Virus record (IMG/VR): IMGVR_UViG_3300010885_048176
Coordinates: 1 to 26,531 of that record
Direction: 5' to 3' (one strand)
DNA length: 26,531 bases
From: a virus
The position numbers and the translations under genes were made by a program. The notes under the pieces were generated by a model. The model had not been told where the DNA came from. It searched no databases and saw nothing but the letters and a program-made list of their open reading frames with translations. Below are positions 581 to 25,874 of the stretch, one piece after another (positions within the stretch are counted from its first letter, which is position 1; every line of letters begins with the position of its first letter).

Positions 581-697
581 TTAAAAACTTCGCCAACCCA
601 TTAGCGTTAGAAAGAATTTCCTTCGCTCCCCTAACTCACCCTCCATATCTGCAACCCACCTTGACGCTGCGTGAAGGTCTTGCCGGTTCCTTTTCAT
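581..697 (-). CDS. Small hypothetical protein (38 aa)
   Basis: A short frame of 38 residues. Its ATG (695-697) overlaps the TGA of the upstream 694-837 gene in an ATGA junction, the coupling type seen throughout this window. The product begins MKRNRQDLHAASRW and ends in MGWRSF; it is basic and amphipathic, with a predicted helix over residues 5-30. It fills most of the gap between its two neighbours. Function is unknown. The stop-start overlap is the main support, and chance cannot be excluded at this length. Confidence 0.45.
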   Translation of the reverse strand: MKRNRQDLHAASRWVADMEGELGERRKFFLTLMGWRSF

Positions 698-837
698 TTT
701 ACTTCTATGAATTTTACTCCATCAATTAAAACCTCTTTCACTTTATCTTTAGCAATTTGTTGGTAAGCCCAGGCAGTTGTCTTTTTGTGTTTCTTCGCGT
801 AGTTAGCAACCGTCAATAATTGTGTTTCTTTTTTCAT
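694..837 (-). CDS. Small winged-HTH / excisionase-like DNA-binding protein (47 aa)
   Basis: The 47-residue product reads LLTVANYAKKHKKTTAWAYQ, then QIAKDKVKEVLIDGVKFIEVK. This is the layout of MerR/excisionase-type helix-turn-helix proteins: a first helix (TVANYAKKH), a turn, a recognition helix (TAWAYQQIAKDK) and a beta-hairpin wing (EVLIDGVKFIEV). Such proteins bind DNA as small regulators or directionality factors. The start is well supported: a TATATTTG box ends 4 nt upstream, with a TTTG 21 nt before that box. It heads a minus-strand cluster and is divergent from the VRR-NUC gene at 941. It could autoregulate the cluster. No integrase is visible, so a role as a true excisionase is not supported. 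Confidence 0.65.
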   Translation of the reverse strand: MKKETQLLTVANYAKKHKKTTAWAYQQIAKDKVKEVLIDGVKFIEVK

Positions 838-1813: not shown

Positions 1814-1850
1814 AGTTATTCAGTTTAGTCAAGTAACCGCCTATATCCTT

Positions 1851-2255
1851 AGCAAGGGGATTTTGTTCTTGCTTTGGTTTCCTACTGCTATTTATTCTTA
1901 CAGTATTCAGTGCTAATTACAGATGTCCGAATATCTATCGGTAGTGTAGTAGCTTCCTCAGCTTGCTTTTAGTCGTAGGTTGACGCGGTTGATTCATTGC
2001 CTACACTTCTACTACACCAATGTTTCCTTGAGCCAAGTTTTACCCACTCTCAAGTTCTAATCTGATTAACGTTCTACTTTGATTTAACCGGTTATGATAG
2101 CGATTGCCGAGCAAACAAGTTTAAGACGGCAATAATAAATAGTGAGTGTGTATAAAAAACAAACCCGAAAAGTGGTAGTTTTTCGGGTTAGGGAAAGAAG
2201 GTTTATTTCCTTTCATTAACCCTTGACTGCTACCACGACACTCAAGAGTTATTAT
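1851..2255 (-). ncRNA. Candidate structured RNA / long regulatory leader in the gene-free gap
   Basis: No protein gene is convincing in 1814-2363. Instead the stretch holds many perfect inverted repeats: 2132-2138/2249-2255 and 2143-2149/2238-2244 (a 7+7 bp closing helix); 2162-2171/2180-2189 (10 bp); 2172-2178/2230-2236 (7 bp, loop to downstream); 2185-2190/2217-2222 (6 bp); 2103-2109/2127-2133 (7 bp); 2027-2032/2049-2054 (6 bp); 1944-1952/2009-2017 (9 bp) with 1975-1979/2000-2004 inside; 1985-1990/1835-1840 (6 bp, long range); 1883-1887/1901-1905; and 1851-1856/1868-1873. The 9-bp helix extends by a G.U and a U-A pair only in the minus-strand RNA. A TATATTTG box at 2262-2269 would start transcription just outside the outer helix. 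Two loops of the 2160-2236 region extend slightly better on the plus strand, so strand is likely but not certain. It does not match tmRNA, RNase P RNA or intron signatures I can recall. Confidence 0.5.
2153..2189 (-). terminator. Intrinsic terminator / attenuator hairpin in the HNH leader
   Basis: On the minus strand a perfect 10-bp stem (AACCCGAAAA with TTTTCGGGTT, 8-nt loop) is followed by TGTTTTTTAT, a canonical intrinsic terminator about 65-100 nt after the promoter at 2262-2290. Both its stem and its loop can instead pair with upstream leader sequence (2217-2222 and 2230-2236), which would melt it, as in transcription attenuators. Confidence 0.65.
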
Positions 2256-2261
2256 GTGCGG

Positions 2262-2290
2262 CAAATATAAAAACCTTTTTTTAATCCAAA
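2262..2290 (-). promoter_or_regulatory. Putative promoter of the HNH leader / structured RNA
   Basis: TATATTTG on the minus strand (2269-2262) is a perfect -7 match. TTTG at 2290-2287 lies 17 nt upstream, slightly shorter than the usual 19-21. It points toward the structured region and the HNH gene. Confidence 0.5.
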
Positions 2291-2342: not shown

Positions 2343-2359
2343 TAAATTTGCTACTTTTG
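2343..2359 (+). promoter_or_regulatory. Two tandem TAnnTTTG boxes before the terminase operon
   Basis: TAAATTTG (2343-2350) and TACTTTTG (2352-2359) stand in tandem before the ATG at 2364. The second leaves 4 nt before the start codon, the same spacing as at three other genes. No clear -33 TTG is present. Confidence 0.45.
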
Positions 2360-16252: not shown

Positions 16253-16413
16253 CTCTTAAACTCAAATTTAAACCTCGGTGAAACAATTACTTCAACTGTA
16301 TGAAATTCTTTCAACAGATTTTTGCAGTAAGCATCCATGAAATACTCCAACGATACATCGGGGCATTCAATTTTATGCAGTTGCTTAATCTCTAATAGCT
16401 GAAATGATTTCAC
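16249..16413 (-). CDS. Small hypothetical protein (54 aa)
   Basis: A 54-residue frame that exactly fills the space between two operon genes: a GTG start overlapping the upstream TGA (GTGA), and a TGA stop overlapping the downstream ATG (ATGA). The product runs KSFQLLEIKQLHKIECPDVS, then LEYFMDAYCKNLL, and ends in a basic strand RFKFEFKR. It is mixed helix and strand, with no signal or membrane segment. Coupling on both sides is the main argument that it is real. Function unknown; it could be an accessory piece for the adjacent glycosyltransferase. Confidence 0.55.
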   Translation of the reverse strand: MKSFQLLEIKQLHKIECPDVSLEYFMDAYCKNLLKEFHTVEVIVSPRFKFEFKR

Positions 16414-17099
16414 TTTGCTAATTGTTTTTTAAACCAAATTGAACTCTCATTGTTAGGACGCTTTGCAATAAACTTTTCTATTAAGGCGGTTGTGTATTCG
16501 TTGTGAGTAACAGCATCCAACAAACTCAACGTTGAACTTCCTAAATGCCTTACTACGCTCGATGAAATAAGCGCGTGCCTAACTTTAAATTCTTTTAGCT
16601 GCTCCGCGTATTCGTTATCAGCAAACCAAAACGGGAAATCTTCATTTATCTTTCCGATGATGCCATATAATTTACGGTTAGTCATTATGCACCATCCACT
16701 CATGTGATGTTTGTTGTTATATCCGAAATCAACAGGCAACGTTCTGCCAACAGTTGAATCGGGACATTTAGGGCAAGCTGATAAAAGATTATACTTCTGC
16801 ATGATTGGAATCATATTGCTGCACCACCCCTTTTTAAATTCCAAATCGTTATTGCACAGGCAAACGTATTCATTCGAAGTCATGCTGATTCCGATATTCA
16901 TAAACCGGTTGTAGTTGAACGGTTCTGTTATGTAGTGCATCGTGCAGTTGTTGTAAATAACGCCTTGCTCCTGTTCAATAACAAGAATATTGAAGCTAAT
17001 TTCTGATTCACTCGTATGGCAACTATTAATGGTTCTTTGGGTAAGTTCCAATAGCATTTGATTGCGTGCGTGAGATAGGATGATGATGTCAACAGTCAT
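16410..17099 (-). CDS. Family 2-type glycosyltransferase
   Basis: A GT-A enzyme of the GT2 type. I start it at ATG 17099 (MTVDIIILSHARN, the usual first strand of the fold), which gives 229 residues and an 11-nt overlap with the methyltransferase gene; the earlier in-frame start adds a hydrophobic tail without family counterpart. Motifs: VIEQEQGV (nucleotide-sugar side), NRFMNIGISMTSNEYVCLCN, then NDLEF (metal-binding NND at 83-85), HHMSGWCIM, and FPFWFADNEYAEQLKE with a catalytic-base-like Asp. No membrane anchor, so it is probably cytoplasmic. Fourth sugar transferase of the minus-strand operon; donor and acceptor unknown. Confidence 0.8.
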   Translation of the reverse strand: MTVDIIILSHARNQMLLELTQRTINSCHTSESEISFNILVIEQEQGVIYNNCTMHYITEPFNYNRFMNIGISMTSNEYVCLCNNDLEFKKGWCSNMIPIMQKYNLLSACPKCPDSTVGRTLPVDFGYNNKHHMSGWCIMTNRKLYGIIGKINEDFPFWFADNEYAEQLKEFKVRHALISSSVVRHLGSSTLSLLDAVTHNEYTTALIEKFIAKRPNNESSIWFKKQLAK

Positions 17100-17790
17100 A
17101 AGTAGCAACAAAGGTTTGATAATCAATAATCTCAATAGTGTATCCGTTGTTCGTGAACCGCTTAATCAATTCTTCGCGGCATTCATCCATTCCGTAGTTA
17201 TTAGTCGGATGACATTCCACAAAGAAGTTCCGAACTTTACCTTTTGTCTTTTTCAGTTCGGAATCGGTAAGCGCAAATATTTCTCCTCCTTCAATATCGC
17301 ATTTGATGAAATCAATAATAGGTTCTCCAGTATTTTTTATGAACGTTGATAATGTTGAAGTCTTTACAGTAATTTTGCCGTTACCGTATCCATTCTCGCT
17401 TGTAATTTTATTCTCGGTGCTGTGACCTGTCATAAACACAGCGGTTCCAACTTTGTCGCTAAGTGCATCGGGAGAGTAATCAGCAAAGCAACTGCCTTGA
17501 TTCGGTTCAATCAATTCAGTAAGCAAACTCATGTGTGCGGGCGTAGGCTCAACGCAGTATATTTTTTTACACGCAGGCATAAAGTATAAAGCTGTCAAGC
17601 CCACATTCGCACCAAAATCAATTACTACCAAATCTTTTTTACCCTCAAACCATTTGGCATACATGCCCGAATTAATTTGATTCAGGATAGTATTTGCGTG
17701 ATTAATAGGTATTGAAAAATGTTGCTCCATTGCAGGAGAGATTTCAATGTTTCTTTTCGTGCCGTTTGGCGAGTTGATTGAGATTGTCAT
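17089..17790 (-). CDS. FkbM-family methyltransferase
   Basis: A 233-residue class I SAM-dependent O-methyltransferase of the FkbM family, whose members often methylate sugars of surface glycans. DLVVIDFGANVGLTALYFMP (53-72) is the glycine-rich motif I; CVEPTPAHMSLL with E81 is the ribose-binding strand; IIDFIKCDIEGGE (158-170) is the diagnostic FkbM block. Full length, no signal peptide. It lies in the glycosylation operon 7 nt after a small coiled-coil gene and overlaps the following glycosyltransferase. Most likely it methylates a sugar added by its neighbours, perhaps capping a chain. Confidence 0.87.
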   Translation of the reverse strand: MTISINSPNGTKRNIEISPAMEQHFSIPINHANTILNQINSGMYAKWFEGKKDLVVIDFGANVGLTALYFMPACKKIYCVEPTPAHMSLLTELIEPNQGSCFADYSPDALSDKVGTAVFMTGHSTENKITSENGYGNGKITVKTSTLSTFIKNTGEPIIDFIKCDIEGGEIFALTDSELKKTKGKVRNFFVECHPTNNYGMDECREELIKRFTNNGYTIEIIDYQTFVATYDC

Positions 17791-17797
17791 TGTGTTA

Positions 17798-18025
17798 TTA
17801 TTTTAGATTTTCGAATTGTTTTTTCAATGATTTTAATTCAGAGTTTAGGTGCTTCAAAAGGCACTTCTTAATTTTGTCAAGTTGAGCAACAGAATAAATA
17901 CCAATATTGATTGGTTTGGCAGCACTGTTCATGCCCTTATCATTTTCTATTTGACCAATAGCACCTTCAATTTCGAGTATTGATTGATTCAATTCATGTG
18001 CAGTATAGTATGTTTCAATTTTCAT
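17798..18025 (-). CDS. Small coiled-coil protein
   Basis: A 75-residue hydrophilic protein: YYTAHELNQSILEIEGAIGQ followed by IYSVAQLDKIKKCLLKHLNS and ELKSLKKQFENLK. Heptad-like spacing of Leu/Ile suggests two helices that pair with each other or with a partner. No signal or catalytic motif. It sits between glycosyltransferase and methyltransferase genes with gaps of 4 and 7 nt, so it is a true operon member. Function unknown. Confidence 0.65.
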   Translation of the reverse strand: MKIETYYTAHELNQSILEIEGAIGQIENDKGMNSAAKPINIGIYSVAQLDKIKKCLLKHLNSELKSLKKQFENLK

Positions 18026-18029
18026 GTTC

Positions 18030-18794
18030 TTAGTTTATAATTGATTGAATAAATGAATGAGTTGATTCGGGGAATACATCGGTATATTTTTTCTTACCGC
18101 TGCCATGTGCAAAGTGATACGCTTTAACGGGCTTGCCTTCCAACATTAGCCGTCCGTTTTCTACATAGCAGTTCTTTTCCTTGTTGATAATGGAGCATCC
18201 ATACCATTGTGTGTGTCCTCTGAAACGATAATCATAATCACCGTCAAGAACTTTTATTTTGTAAGGGTAAGTATGTGCAACGATATTCAGCACATCGTTT
18301 TCAAAGCAGACAAATTTATTGTAATGTTTCTGTGTTGCATATTCGTAATGCTTCCAAAATTGTTTACTCGGTGAAGCAATTAAACCGCCTTGCAAAAAAT
18401 GTTTTTCATCAACTAACCAATTCGGATTTCCGTTACCGGTTATTCCGCTGCTTACTTTTATACCTACAAGATTATCGGTTTCGTTAAAGTTTGCAGGGCA
18501 AGCCACATCATAATCAGCGGCAAGTATTTCACCAAGTGGAGCGAGTATATAGTGGTCGGCATCAATATTTACAACCAAGTCGTATTCCTCACTTAGTATG
18601 CGCCCGAATGTTGCTTTAGCGTTGTAATAGTTCACTCCTTCGCGCTGCATATCGCGCTCATCGAATATTTTCAATTCTATGTCAGGGTGAAACTTTTTGA
18701 AGCTGTTGACGAAACCTTTAAAATCTAAATTGCGCGAATTGTTTACGCTTCTTTGAATGATGCTGTCGCAGATGGTGAAGAAGATTGTTTTCAT
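18030..18794 (-). CDS. GT-A glycosyltransferase (GT8-like)
   Basis: A 254-residue sugar transferase. MKTIFFTICDSIIQRSVNNS opens the first strand. FGRILSEEYDLVVNIDADHY carries D-x-D at D78/D80. The middle has FLQGGLIASPSKQFWKHYE and the end AYHFAHGSGKKKYTD, where the His and Gly-Ser-Gly loop resemble the C-terminal motif of GT8-like enzymes that binds the donor diphosphate. No membrane segment. Upstream it overlaps a 68-residue gene by 4 nt. It is one of four transferases here that differ in fold type, which argues for a multi-sugar chain rather than a single modification. Confidence 0.8.
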   Translation of the reverse strand: MKTIFFTICDSIIQRSVNNSRNLDFKGFVNSFKKFHPDIELKIFDERDMQREGVNYYNAKATFGRILSEEYDLVVNIDADHYILAPLGEILAADYDVACPANFNETDNLVGIKVSSGITGNGNPNWLVDEKHFLQGGLIASPSKQFWKHYEYATQKHYNKFVCFENDVLNIVAHTYPYKIKVLDGDYDYRFRGHTQWYGCSIINKEKNCYVENGRLMLEGKPVKAYHFAHGSGKKKYTDVFPESTHSFIQSIIN

Positions 18795-18997
18795 AATAGG
18801 AATAATAAAAATTTACGCAAGTCGTTTATGTCAGAAATATTGTTTAGAGAAACGCCATGATAGTTATCATATTCCCTTACAAAAGTTGCTTTGCCATCAA
18901 CAAGTAAAAAATTGTATCTTGGATATTTATTGTGAATCCATCCATTTTCGAATTCTGCATATACAAAACCACTACTCTCTAATTCTTCATTTGTCAT
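18791..18997 (-). CDS. Small hypothetical protein (68 aa)
   Basis: A 68-residue protein with 4-nt overlaps on both sides. It contains VYAEFENGWIHNKYPRYNFL, then LVDGKATFVREYDNYHGVSL, strands rich in aromatic residues, and ends in a helix DINDLRKFLLFLL. No signal peptide or known motif. It resembles small beta-rich phage proteins of unknown role. The tight overlaps support coding and co-translation with the flanking glycosyltransferases. Confidence 0.6.
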   Translation of the reverse strand: MTNEELESSGFVYAEFENGWIHNKYPRYNFLLVDGKATFVREYDNYHGVSLNNISDINDLRKFLLFLL

Positions 18998-19824
18998 AAA
19001 ATAGATTTTGCTTTTTCAATAAATAACCTCGTTTCCTCCAAAGTTTCCTTTTCAATTTTCAATAACTCTTCCTTTACTAAATGCCGAGTAGTTAAAGCAT
19101 GTTTCAAATCGTTCATCCCGTATGCAATGCCGTATTTAAAGTAAGGGAATCCGCTTTTCCATTGTTCGGCACTTATTCCTTCAATAGGCATTACCACACT
19201 CACACAGCCGCACAAAGCAGCCATTACGTTTAGCCACGTTGCGCCATCGTAACTGATAAACATTTCACACCTGTTAAACACAGCGGATAAATATTCATTG
19301 CCGCCTTTGCTCGGGTAATCGTCCAGTTTTGTAGCAGTTTCAGAATGTGCGTTGTGTTCTTTATCGTTGCCCTTTTTTATCAGATAGCAATCGCCTTTCC
19401 TTTCCCCTCGGTAATCTCTGAAAATTTCTAAGTTCAATTCAACAGCGCGTAATTCGCCATGAACTGTTTGCTCGTTACGCAAATTAAAATGAGAGGCGTA
19501 TTTGTAAATCAAATCATTCGCTCCGAAAATTCCAAACTCACCGTAGTTTCTTATATGGTAAAGTATCCATCGCGTAATGTGTTTAGCGTGAAAAGGATTT
19601 CCGCATGTTACCTCGGGATAAATTGCCATTGCTCCTTCATATTTGCATAAATGAACTGCCTCGCGCTCGGTAACCATACGCCCGCCATAAGCAGGGTTCA
19701 TTTTAGAAGTCATGATGTAACTTTCCTCACCGAGTAAAGCAATGTTATGTGCAAGTTTATGAAGGGCAACACAGCCGCCTCCGTTGGGAGTATAGTCGCC
19801 AGGTGCGTAGATTACGAATTTCAT
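18994..19824 (-). CDS. GT-B fold glycosyltransferase-like protein
   Basis: A 276-residue protein with a GT-B-like layout. The N-terminus MKFVIYAPGDYTPNGGGCVA followed by LHKLAHNIALLGE has the Gly-rich first loop and helix of GT4-type enzymes. The second half has YLSAVFNRCEMFISYDGATW and LCGCVSVVMPIEGISAEQWK, strands that normally bind the nucleotide sugar. It is shorter than typical GT4 proteins (about 350-400), and the usual E-x7-E motif is not clear, so it may be a minimal or divergent member. It shares 4-nt overlaps with neighbours in the operon. Confidence 0.7.
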   Translation of the reverse strand: MKFVIYAPGDYTPNGGGCVALHKLAHNIALLGEESYIMTSKMNPAYGGRMVTEREAVHLCKYEGAMAIYPEVTCGNPFHAKHITRWILYHIRNYGEFGIFGANDLIYKYASHFNLRNEQTVHGELRAVELNLEIFRDYRGERKGDCYLIKKGNDKEHNAHSETATKLDDYPSKGGNEYLSAVFNRCEMFISYDGATWLNVMAALCGCVSVVMPIEGISAEQWKSGFPYFKYGIAYGMNDLKHALTTRHLVKEELLKIEKETLEETRLFIEKAKSIL

Positions 19825-20417
19825 CTTCTATTACTTGTTGATTGTTGCGTAAATAAATAATTGTAAAGCACTTTATCAATTCGCTCTTGTGTTTTTATAA
19901 GCGGTAAAACACGTTTAGCAAAATCAGCATCTTCGCCAAATGAAACATTCTGATATGGAACTTGCAAAGCTATTTCTCTTTTGAATACCATTAAATGATT
20001 TGGTATGCGATAATACATTTGTGAAGTGTTTGAATCCTGTTTGTATTCAATACCATACTTCACTTGCTTATCCTTTCGACCGTTTACGAATCGAATAGCA
20101 TCAAACACAATGCAATCGGGCTTAGTTGCCATTTTAGAAAGTATCTGTGGAATGTAATCGCGCTCAACTGTATCATCATCATCAATAAACGAAACATAAT
20201 CACCGCTTGCAAGATTCATGAGTTTGTTTCGTTTTTCACCTATACTCATTTGCCTATTATCGGTAAGAATAAGCACCTCGCAGTCTTCGTTCCAATACTT
20301 TTTAATGTTTGGTTCAGTATGTGTGCTTTCGTCACCAATAAGCAAAGTGTCAAGCAACCTTCTTAAAAAGACTTCACGACCGGTAATTGAGCAAATAAGA
20401 ATTGATAGTTGCTTCAT
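19821..20417 (-). CDS. Family 2 glycosyltransferase
   Basis: A 198-residue GT2 enzyme. LSILICSITGREVFLRRLLD is the first strand and helix; GEKRNKLMNLASGDYVSFID, then DDD (D79-D82) gives the metal-binding D-x-D in the classical GDYVSFIDDDD setting; NHLMVFKREIA is the acceptor strand; GEDADFAKRVLP (161-172) supplies the ED catalytic-base motif. Compact single domain, no membrane anchor. First transferase of the minus-strand operon, overlapping a zinc-ribbon-like gene by 4 nt. Confidence 0.85.
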   Translation of the reverse strand: MKQLSILICSITGREVFLRRLLDTLLIGDESTHTEPNIKKYWNEDCEVLILTDNRQMSIGEKRNKLMNLASGDYVSFIDDDDTVERDYIPQILSKMATKPDCIVFDAIRFVNGRKDKQVKYGIEYKQDSNTSQMYYRIPNHLMVFKREIALQVPYQNVSFGEDADFAKRVLPLIKTQERIDKVLYNYLFTQQSTSNRR

Positions 20418-21801: not shown

Positions 21802-22917
21802 ATGGCATCAGGCTTTGCACCTTACCTCCTCAAATCAATGGCTGAATTTGCAGGAGCGGACGACCCCGAATACAAATTAACAGCAACAGGATTTCTTAAA
21901 ATGCTTCTTGCATCAAATGCAGTGCGTGGAGGTTCGGTTCTTAAAACGAACTTACCAAGCGGACAAACAAGACAGGTTCAAATTAAATACCGTCCTCGTG
22001 CTACCGAAGCAATCATCAAAGAAACTGACGACTGCGACATCAATTATGCTCCGGCATATCTTGAAACAACTCTTACTATCCCGCGCACTGTAAAAACAGG
22101 AATTTATCTGTCTTTTGAAGATATGCGCAAATACGAAGCGGATGCCATTCAATCAAAAAGTTTAGGCAAACCTTCAACAACTTTGGCGAAAGAACTTGTT
22201 GACCGAGTAATGAGTGCTTCAAATGCACTTTTGACCGTAATCGACAAACGCCTTGAAACCGATGTGGTTTGGGGAAAAAATATTGTTACCGGTTTGGCTA
22301 CAGCAACAACTTTGAACATCAACAAGGACGCAACCAAGTTCGATGTGAACACAGGTATCGGAAAATTATTGGCTGATGCCGATGTAAACGAAATGTTCGG
22401 TATGCGCCATATCGTTGGCTCGGGATTGTTCAACAACTACCAGCGTCAATTGATTGGTGCAGGTCTTGGACAGAACGGAGTAAACAACGCACAGTTTGAA
22501 GCTGAATACAAATGGTATTTAGATTTGTTCGCATCTGCTAACGCAAACTGGGGAACAAACGCAATCGGAGTATTTGATTTGGAGGCAATAGGTTTTGCCG
22601 ACATTGACAAATTCGTTGGAGCGTTCAGCGGCACTTTAGGAACTTCACAATTGTTTCAAGCACAGATTCCGGTTATAGGCAACCAAAACGATGGAACGCT
22701 TAACGGAATGACTTTCGATATGCAGTTGAAGCCTATTGAGTGCCCTACTGTTCTCTTGAATGATTACGGTTCAGAAACAACCTTCGATAAGGGTTACGCG
22801 CTTTACATCACTAAAAACTACGGCTTGTTCCAAGTTCCAAGTGATTCTTACGCAGTTGCTGACCGCATGAGTGGAAACAACGGAGCTTTACTTTACACGG
22901 TTACAAACAACGTTTAA
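21802..22917 (+). CDS. Major capsid protein
   Basis: A 371-residue capsid protein, identified by order (scaffold, capsid, then connectors), by strong own-promoter context, and by composition: soluble, no Cys-rich or catalytic motif, mixed alpha/beta with a long loop (LPSGQTRQVQIKYRPRATEA) that could be an E-loop, a helical spine (TTLAKELVDRVMSASNALLT), and a C-terminal beta-rich part (NYGLFQVPSDSYAVADRMSG). The fold is presumably HK97-type. No separate prohead protease gene is visible, so maturation may not require one. A terminator follows 7 nt after the stop. Confidence 0.8.
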   Translation: MASGFAPYLLKSMAEFAGADDPEYKLTATGFLKMLLASNAVRGGSVLKTNLPSGQTRQVQIKYRPRATEAIIKETDDCDINYAPAYLETTLTIPRTVKTGIYLSFEDMRKYEADAIQSKSLGKPSTTLAKELVDRVMSASNALLTVIDKRLETDVVWGKNIVTGLATATTLNINKDATKFDVNTGIGKLLADADVNEMFGMRHIVGSGLFNNYQRQLIGAGLGQNGVNNAQFEAEYKWYLDLFASANANWGTNAIGVFDLEAIGFADIDKFVGAFSGTLGTSQLFQAQIPVIGNQNDGTLNGMTFDMQLKPIECPTVLLNDYGSETTFDKGYALYITKNYGLFQVPSDSYAVADRMSGNNGALLYTVTNNV

Positions 22918-22958: not shown

Positions 22959-23032
22959 CGTGGGGTGGCGCAGTTGGTTAGCGCGATGGACTCATAATCC
23001 ATAGGTCATTGGTTCGAGTCCAATTCCCGCAA
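22959..23032 (+). tRNA. tRNA with CAU anticodon (Met; initiator-like)
   Basis: A complete cloverleaf of 74 nt. Acceptor: CGTGGGG with TCCCGCA. D arm: GCGC/GCGC with a 9-nt loop. Anticodon arm: ATGGA-CTCATAA-TCCAT, anticodon CAT at 22993-22995. Variable loop: AGGTC. T arm: ATTGG-TTCGAGT-CCAAT. Discriminator A at 23032, followed by CTA instead of CCA, so the tail would be added by the host. Position 1 is C opposite A72, a mismatch that marks bacterial initiator tRNA; the anticodon stem has two of the three initiator G-C pairs (third is A-U), and pair 11:24 (C-G) is elongator-like. Elongator Met or lysidine-modified Ile2 remain possible. Confidence 0.92.
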
Positions 23033-23040
23033 CTATAAGC

Positions 23041-25271: not shown

Positions 25272-25811
25272 ATGGCATACTATCCATCAACTTGTAACCC
25301 TTTAGACCAACACAATTGCGACCCTTGCGAGCATATTGAGTTAGGTAAACTGCGTTCAGCGGCTTTCATTTCGAATGCTTTTACATTTACAGACCCAACA
25401 GACCCAACAGAATGGGCAGCAGGTATTGCCTCGGGCGACATTTTCATTATTCCAGAAACTCACGGGGAAGTTCCTCTTCCATCGCCTAAGATGGGCGCAG
25501 GTTTTGGAAATACCGTTGAGCAACTTTTGGCTTACGATTTTACTGCAAAGTATTTTGACCCGAATTTCGCAAGCAACGCCACATGGTATAATGCGATTAA
25601 AAAGAATCGTAACTTTAACTTTGCATGGAGGACTGAAACGCAAACTTACATTTCCACAAATACCGTTACAATTGTTCCAGGGTATCAGGTGCAAGACGAT
25701 TTAACTTCAATGGTAACATGGGAAGTTGGGTTGAAATGGCAGGCGCAGGACTTATCAGAACCGTTCAATACTCCTGAAGGAATATTTGACGAGTGCTACG
25801 TGCCTGCATAA
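25272..25811 (+). CDS. Probable major tail (tube) protein
   Basis: A 179-residue protein. The Cys-rich start CNPLDQHNCDPCEHIELGKL is followed by beta-strand-rich sequence with a tail-tube-like order: AAFISNAFTFTDPTDPTEWA, then VPLPSPKMGAGFGNTVEQLL, then MVTWEVGLKWQAQDLSEPFN. Repeated three-fold TDPTDPTE comes from a short tandem DNA repeat at 25390-25408. Position after the terminator-like gene and before a fibre-like gene supports a tube protein. Gene length matches small siphovirus tube proteins. It lies about 17 kb from the tape measure, contrary to common gene order. Confidence 0.65.
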   Translation: MAYYPSTCNPLDQHNCDPCEHIELGKLRSAAFISNAFTFTDPTDPTEWAAGIASGDIFIIPETHGEVPLPSPKMGAGFGNTVEQLLAYDFTAKYFDPNFASNATWYNAIKKNRNFNFAWRTETQTYISTNTVTIVPGYQVQDDLTSMVTWEVGLKWQAQDLSEPFNTPEGIFDECYVPA

Positions 25812-25829
25812 AAATAAATTCGTTTTAGT

Positions 25830-25855
25830 GTGCGTTGATGTGAAAGTCAGCGCAC
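25830..25855 (+). terminator. Hairpin after the tail tube gene
   Basis: GTGCGTTGA (25830-25838) pairs with TCAGCGCAC (25847-25855), 9 bp with one U.G and an 8-nt loop. It is followed by CTTAAATTAT rather than a U run, so termination is likely partial. It may stabilise the end of an abundant tube mRNA. Confidence 0.45.
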
Positions 25856-25874
25856 CTTAAATTATAAAAGCCGT

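Follow-up and report, generated by a model that had tools for sequence, protein, structure and literature searches.

A candidate attenuating leader with a loop-complementary terminator upstream of an antisense HNH endonuclease gene in a putative Bacteroidota phage

The gap between the HNH and terminase genes of the window (the whole 26,531-nt stretch of viral DNA that was analyzed) appears, from its sequence, to hold a compact, strongly structured RNA of ∼105 bases, bounded by a promoter and a terminator of its own, and not a large ornate RNA. Our current hypothesis, to which we give a probability of about one half, is that the element is the attenuating 5′ leader of an antisense, free-standing HNH cassette in a Bacteroidota phage, and the ∼105-nt RNA is probably a built-in brake on the HNH gene. 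The evidence is computational throughout and consists of a promoter consensus, hairpins, a terminator sequence, loop complementarity, fold energies, and the layout of a second locus on another phage contig, L015. From these we infer transcription, termination, the kissing contact, switching, and HNH control. The features on which the argument draws are listed below in the order in which a minus-strand transcript would meet them, preceded by the divergent boxes of the plus strand.

2343-2359, plus strand: divergent promoter-like boxes, TAAATTTG (2343-2350) and TACTTTTG (2352-2359), shortly upstream of the gene for the terminase small subunit.
2287-2290, minus strand: TTTG, the -33 element of a Bacteroidota-type promoter, separated from the -7 box by 17 nt and assigned from the sequence and the published consensus.
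2262-2269, minus strand: -7 box TATATTTG, a match to TAnnTTTG.
2217-2251, minus strand: hairpin H1, with a 10-bp stem of UAACUCUUGA (2251-2242) and UCAAGGGUUA (2226-2217).
2121-2216, minus strand: 31-aa open frame MKGNKPSFPNPKNYHFSGLFFIHTHYLLLPS, running from between H1 and H2 across the terminator.
2193-2214, minus strand: hairpin H2, 7 bp, GAAAGGA (2214-2208) with UUCUUUC (2199-2193).
2154-2189, minus strand: predicted intrinsic terminator H3, with a stem of AACCCGAAAA (2189-2180) and UUUUCGGGUU (2171-2162).
2172-2178, minus strand: terminator-loop CUACCAC, a perfect 7-nt complement of GUGGUAG in the H1 loop (2236-2230) and a candidate 7-bp kissing interaction.
2132-2149, minus strand: 3′ strands of the outer two-part helix (partner 2238-2255), downstream of the terminator, from repeats and folding.
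1814-2131, minus strand: remainder of the leader to the HNH start codon, with chance-level structure in the whole-contig scan.
1313-1813, minus strand: free-standing HNH endonuclease of 166 aa, a ∼60-aa N-terminal domain followed by the HNH domain.

A preliminary description of this DNA had placed a near-consensus promoter just outside the outer helix. The consensus match is real, but its type is that of Bacteroidota and not of sigma-70, the Bacteroidota consensus being TTTG at -33 and TAnnTTTG at -7 (PMC7366714). In the intergenic DNA of the contig TAnnTTTG was observed nine times, against 3.1 expected. Transcription is predicted to start at ∼2257, about 5 nt past the -7 box and at the foot of H1. 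Together, the promoters and the phage relatives lead us to infer a Bacteroidota host. A second TATATTTG box is located at 842-849, and 4 nt later there is a 47-aa ORF, MKKETQLLTVANYAKKHKKTTAWAYQQIAKDKVKEVLIDGVKFIEVK (694-837, minus strand), which by eye is helix-turn-helix-like.

The preliminary description had further read the gap as one large structured RNA built from a series of inverted repeats. Most of these repeats exist. The two-part 14-bp helix (2132-2138 with 2249-2255, 7 bp, and 2143-2149 with 2238-2244, 7 bp), the 9-bp repeat (1944-1952 with 2009-2017), and the long-range 6-bp pairing (1985-1990 with 1835-1840) were all recovered, and the 7-bp hairpin near 2103-2133 is present with its register one base off, ATTGCCG pairing with CGGCAAT at 2127-2133. 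However, they do not amount to a single ornate RNA of ∼420 nt, and the excess of folding is confined to 2132-2258. The minus strand of this ∼127-nt segment folds with a z of -4.7, and 0 of 200 shuffles were as good. A scan of both strands of the whole contig covered 882 strand-windows of 120 nt, among which those at 2161 (z -4.8) and 2101 (z -4.3) of the minus strand ranked second and fourth, the other two of the top four being a tRNA locus and a coding-sequence window at 17161. The remaining 320 nt are at chance level. From 1801 to 2100, z ranges from -1.3 to +0.9 whichever strand is folded, shuffled versions of 1814-2131 fold equally well, and 7-11 of 200 shuffles contain a repeat like the 9-bp one at 1944/2009. 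Over the entire 449 nt, z is -1.7 for the minus strand and -1.9 for the plus strand. What is retained is a structured minus-strand RNA beside a promoter. The gap had also been said to hold no convincing gene; no gene of at least 60 aa lies wholly inside it, and an 84-aa plus-strand ORF (1662-1916), antisense to HNH, overlaps its edge.

Other features of the window were also noted. The tRNA locus is a tRNA-Met (CAT) at 22959-23033 on the plus strand, between two structural-module genes and just after a 371-aa gene (21802-22917). At 17161-17280 (minus strand) the fold z of -4.6 falls within the coding sequence of an FkbM-type methyltransferase (17089-17790); glycosyltransferase-like and FkbM methyltransferase genes form a minus-strand block at 16410-20417 inside the structural module. 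A symmetric two-strand fold signal with a z of about -3.4 was detected at 25741-25860, where a gene ends at 25811, and is probably a bidirectional terminator after that gene.

Within the folded segment, two elements had been missed by the preliminary description. The first is a perfect 10-bp hairpin (2162-2171 with 2180-2189) followed on the minus strand by TTTGTTTTTT. This hairpin, H3, has the loop ACUACCAC and the tail UGUUUUUU at 2161-2154. It reads as a terminator on the minus strand only, with 10 perfect pairs and a U-run, and no other terminator-like stem in the scanned 2.2 kb is as long. The second is the 7-nt complementarity between its loop and that of H1, which is 15 nt long and contains GUGGUAG (2236-2230). 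A kissing terminator was defined as two hairpins whose loops complement each other over 6 nt or more, together with a terminator tail; the H1/H3 pair fits this definition, and none of 40 strand-windows shuffled from the contig yielded such a pair.

Growing transcripts were folded length by length by minimum free energy, with energies that are pseudoknot-free. H1 and H2 are the first to form. At ∼90 nt the best fold is a rod in which GUGGUAG pairs with CUACCAC and GGGUUA with UAACCC around H2 (-26.5 kcal/mol). The H1-H2-terminator fold then takes over for lengths of 97-122 nt (-32.4 kcal/mol), and at 127 nt, with 2132-2149 made, the rod with the outer two-part helix is best again (-33.3 kcal/mol). 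The terminator and rod folds are near-equal in computed energy; a kissing contact would tip the balance further toward the terminator fold. As judged from computed energies, the terminator and antiterminator folds are mutually exclusive, and in the sequence a promoter, an intrinsic terminator, and a downstream gene stand on one strand. The modeled succession of folds is consistent with the pattern of an attenuator, with putative switching.

In the mechanism that we propose, the dedicated promoter would start transcription at the foot of H1. H1, H2, and then the strong terminator would be made, and the terminator loop could kiss the H1 loop over 7 bp. Most transcripts should stop as ∼105-nt RNAs. 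At ∼90 nt the antiterminator-like rod would be the preferred fold, and if the polymerase moved past the U-run, strands 2132-2149 would complete a rod with a stability equal to that of the terminator fold. The leader would either keep HNH expression low or couple HNH to a signal that holds the rod, be it a protein, an RNA, or translation of the short frame. The 31-codon frame may be a candidate leader peptide, but AT-rich DNA not uncommonly contains ORFs of that size.

The terminase is of the Terminase_3/Sf6 small-subunit type (PF20901). In the Flavobacterium phages lotta8-1 and FPSV-S27, which are distant relatives at ∼30% in TerL, a VRR-NUC gene stands directly before the terminase small subunit gene. 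In the window 1.07 kb lies between the two, and this space holds the opposite-strand HNH gene, its leader, and a fresh plus-strand terminase promoter. Because the distant relatives have VRR-NUC adjoining the terminase small subunit without this block, the HNH gene and leader look like an endonuclease cassette that was inserted at the junction of the VRR-NUC and terminase genes. An HNH gene between genes that are adjacent in relatives is the arrangement of a homing cassette, with the reservation that these relatives are distant (∼30% in TerL). Searches with TerL and the structural protein found no near phage relative that lacks the insert.

The same layout, as read from the sequence, precedes a homologous HNH gene in L015, so that the arrangement is seen at two loci only. 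The L015 protein (40% identity over 164 residues) was the one other full-length HNH homologue that the searched collections yielded; further ones were found neither in viral contigs (four queries) nor in ∼1,190 genomes of three phyla, genome contigs, phages, or plasmids. The L015 leader folds with a z of -4.6 over 297 nt, reaching -7.5 in 120-nt windows. Its promoter, read from the sequence, is sigma-70-like (TTGCTC-16-TATATT), and its H1 is GATTTGAA-CCGTGAA-TTCAGATC. The apical loop of a larger terminator-like hairpin, TTCACGG, complements the H1 loop perfectly over 7 nt, and TTTTT follows. The two RNAs show no sequence similarity, with 229 of 500 shuffles aligning equally well, and their topologies differ: the leader in the window has H2 and the rod alternative, whereas in L015 the kissing hairpin is located inside a longer terminator stem. 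A single rule that covers both leaders, applied to all loci collected (3.5 Mb of strand sequence), returned three hits, namely the two leaders and one chance site; this rarity is somewhat flattering, since both leaders were already known when the rule was framed. We tentatively raise, with the odds against it, a new leader-RNA class with a kissing-locked terminator, which would travel with the N-domain/HNH family across unrelated phages with its architecture kept and its sequence turned over. If the class were real, phage genomes could be searched for similar leaders by a rule that does not depend on sequence.

Other relatives of the HNH protein were considered in parts. Upstream of partial relatives that lack the N-terminal domain, strong structure is mostly absent. 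In three partial homologues (L188, L189, and L192) the 250 nt ahead of the gene contain folds with z between -3.8 and -4.8, which may be ordinary terminators. The N-terminal domain alone (42% over 51 aa) occurs in a short hypothetical gene (L201, 2489-2788) on many Salmonella and E. coli plasmids. The plasmid copy is apparently a truncated fragment, and no comparable leader was found by the N-terminal-domain gene on the enterobacterial plasmids.

Sequence searches with the RNA itself returned no homologue in the collections searched. By blastn against phages and plasmids the gap gave chance matches only, and the exact 18-mer of the terminator arm had 10 matches in viral contigs, all unrelated. 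A covariance model (R1), in which one sequence was entered twice for lack of a homologue, had eight matches in 395 Bacteroidota genomes at E 0.0025-0.08 per genome, which does not exceed the chance expectation. Close phage relatives were not found via TerL and a 921-aa structural protein, and a profile search with TerL brought up distant loci throughout, 80 viral and 80 from genomes, in none of which the block was seen. With the Rfam covariance models, the gap had no match at the gathering thresholds and only noise at E values up to 10; the sole match of gathering score in the window is the tRNA at 22959.

Several other explanations of the element have to be weighed. It could be a stand-alone regulatory sRNA of ∼105 nt (2257-2154) that is transcribed from its own promoter, ends at its own terminator, acts in trans on phage or host mRNAs, and lies near HNH by accident. 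A promoter with a terminator is the signature of Bacteroides intergenic sRNAs (PMC7366714), and the distance of 340 nt from the terminator to the HNH start, of which 320 nt are unstructured, counts against an attenuating leader because an RNA that ends at the terminator might stand alone as an sRNA. However, an incidental neighbor would not explain why the L015 HNH gene has the same layout upstream, and an antisense-target scan with whole-RNA duplexes gave no discriminating target. We regard the stand-alone sRNA as an unlikely but serious alternative. We give less credit to an ordinary promoter and terminator that simply end antisense transcription, with the loop complementarity and rod as coincidences. 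Every piece is commonplace by itself and, under looser rules, a 7-nt loop-loop match appeared in 1.4% (window) and 3.1% (L015) of shuffles and so is not vanishingly rare, but this explanation must let the z of -4.7, the outer 14-bp helix, the start at the H1 foot, and the recurrence in L015 all coincide.

The remaining explanations are much less probable. The repeats could be a packaging DNA element (pac or cos), lying 100-230 bp before the gene for the terminase small subunit (PF20901), by which it would be bound. We consider this improbable, as a minus-strand RNA is the only reading under which the asymmetric U-run and the promoter box make sense, and relatives of the large terminase have no such block before their terminase genes. 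In Sf6 the pac site lies inside the small-subunit gene, which also counts against a packaging site here. The likeness to phi29 packaging RNA suggested in the preliminary description likewise found no support, with no Rfam match and a terminase of another type. A guide or scaffold RNA working with the HNH protein, as omega RNA (HEARO) does with IscB, is more doubtful still. An RNA lies upstream of the HNH gene at two loci, and the NCBIfam model closest to the HNH domain is IscB (E 2.3e-8), but the match scores 33.5 bits against a curated cut-off of 175, is limited to residues 72-162, and spans little past the generic HNH stretch; the 166-aa protein lacks RuvC and the other IscB parts, and no Rfam HEARO match was obtained. 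A large ornate RNA of the ROOL/GOLLD kind at ∼1851-2269 is the least probable explanation, as most of the listed repeats exist but the terminator ∼100 nt past the promoter would cut such an RNA, 1814-2131 is at chance, the total z is -1.7 to -1.9, and Rfam gives no match.

Comparison with known systems places the putative attenuating leader of the HNH cassette among regulated endonuclease genes. With ROOL and GOLLD it shares being a candidate non-coding RNA borne by a phage; unlike them it is far smaller (a fold excess of ∼127 nt and not several hundred), has no family match, and leaves most of the claimed region unstructured. With HEARO/omega RNA it shares the position of a structured RNA upstream of an HNH gene, while differing in the absence of RuvC and of a family match and in carrying an intrinsic terminator. 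6S RNA was rejected as well, with no Rfam match and a rod that is only loosely 6S-like and holds a terminator. In attenuators and terminator riboswitches, the terminator and antiterminator folds exclude each other, differ little in energy, and lie a short distance past the promoter. The leader in the window resembles them in its two exclusive folds of near-equal energy close to a promoter, and differs in having no known aptamer, T-box, or Rfam match. To our knowledge, a loop-loop contact that uses the terminator loop is unusual among attenuators.

Restrained expression lets selfish endonucleases persist more easily in phages. The free-standing homing endonucleases of T4-type phages are restrained by their own promoters, terminators, and RNA hairpins (PMC2988022). 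In the known T4-like cases, either the ribosome binding site is hidden or a weak terminator lies inside the coding region (PMC2988022). The T4-like genes mobE, segB, segF, and seg43 (PMC2988022) share with the HNH gene a free-standing phage endonuclease between genes, its own promoter, and hairpins or terminators that limit expression. Unlike these cases, the leader described here stands apart from the coding region, and its strong terminator, for which the H1 loop is a candidate kissing partner, lies 340 nt ahead of the HNH start codon. A terminating leader with a loop-loop contact would extend the short list of mechanisms known for such restraint, and by analogy the regulated homing endonucleases of T4-like phages are the closest precedent for it.
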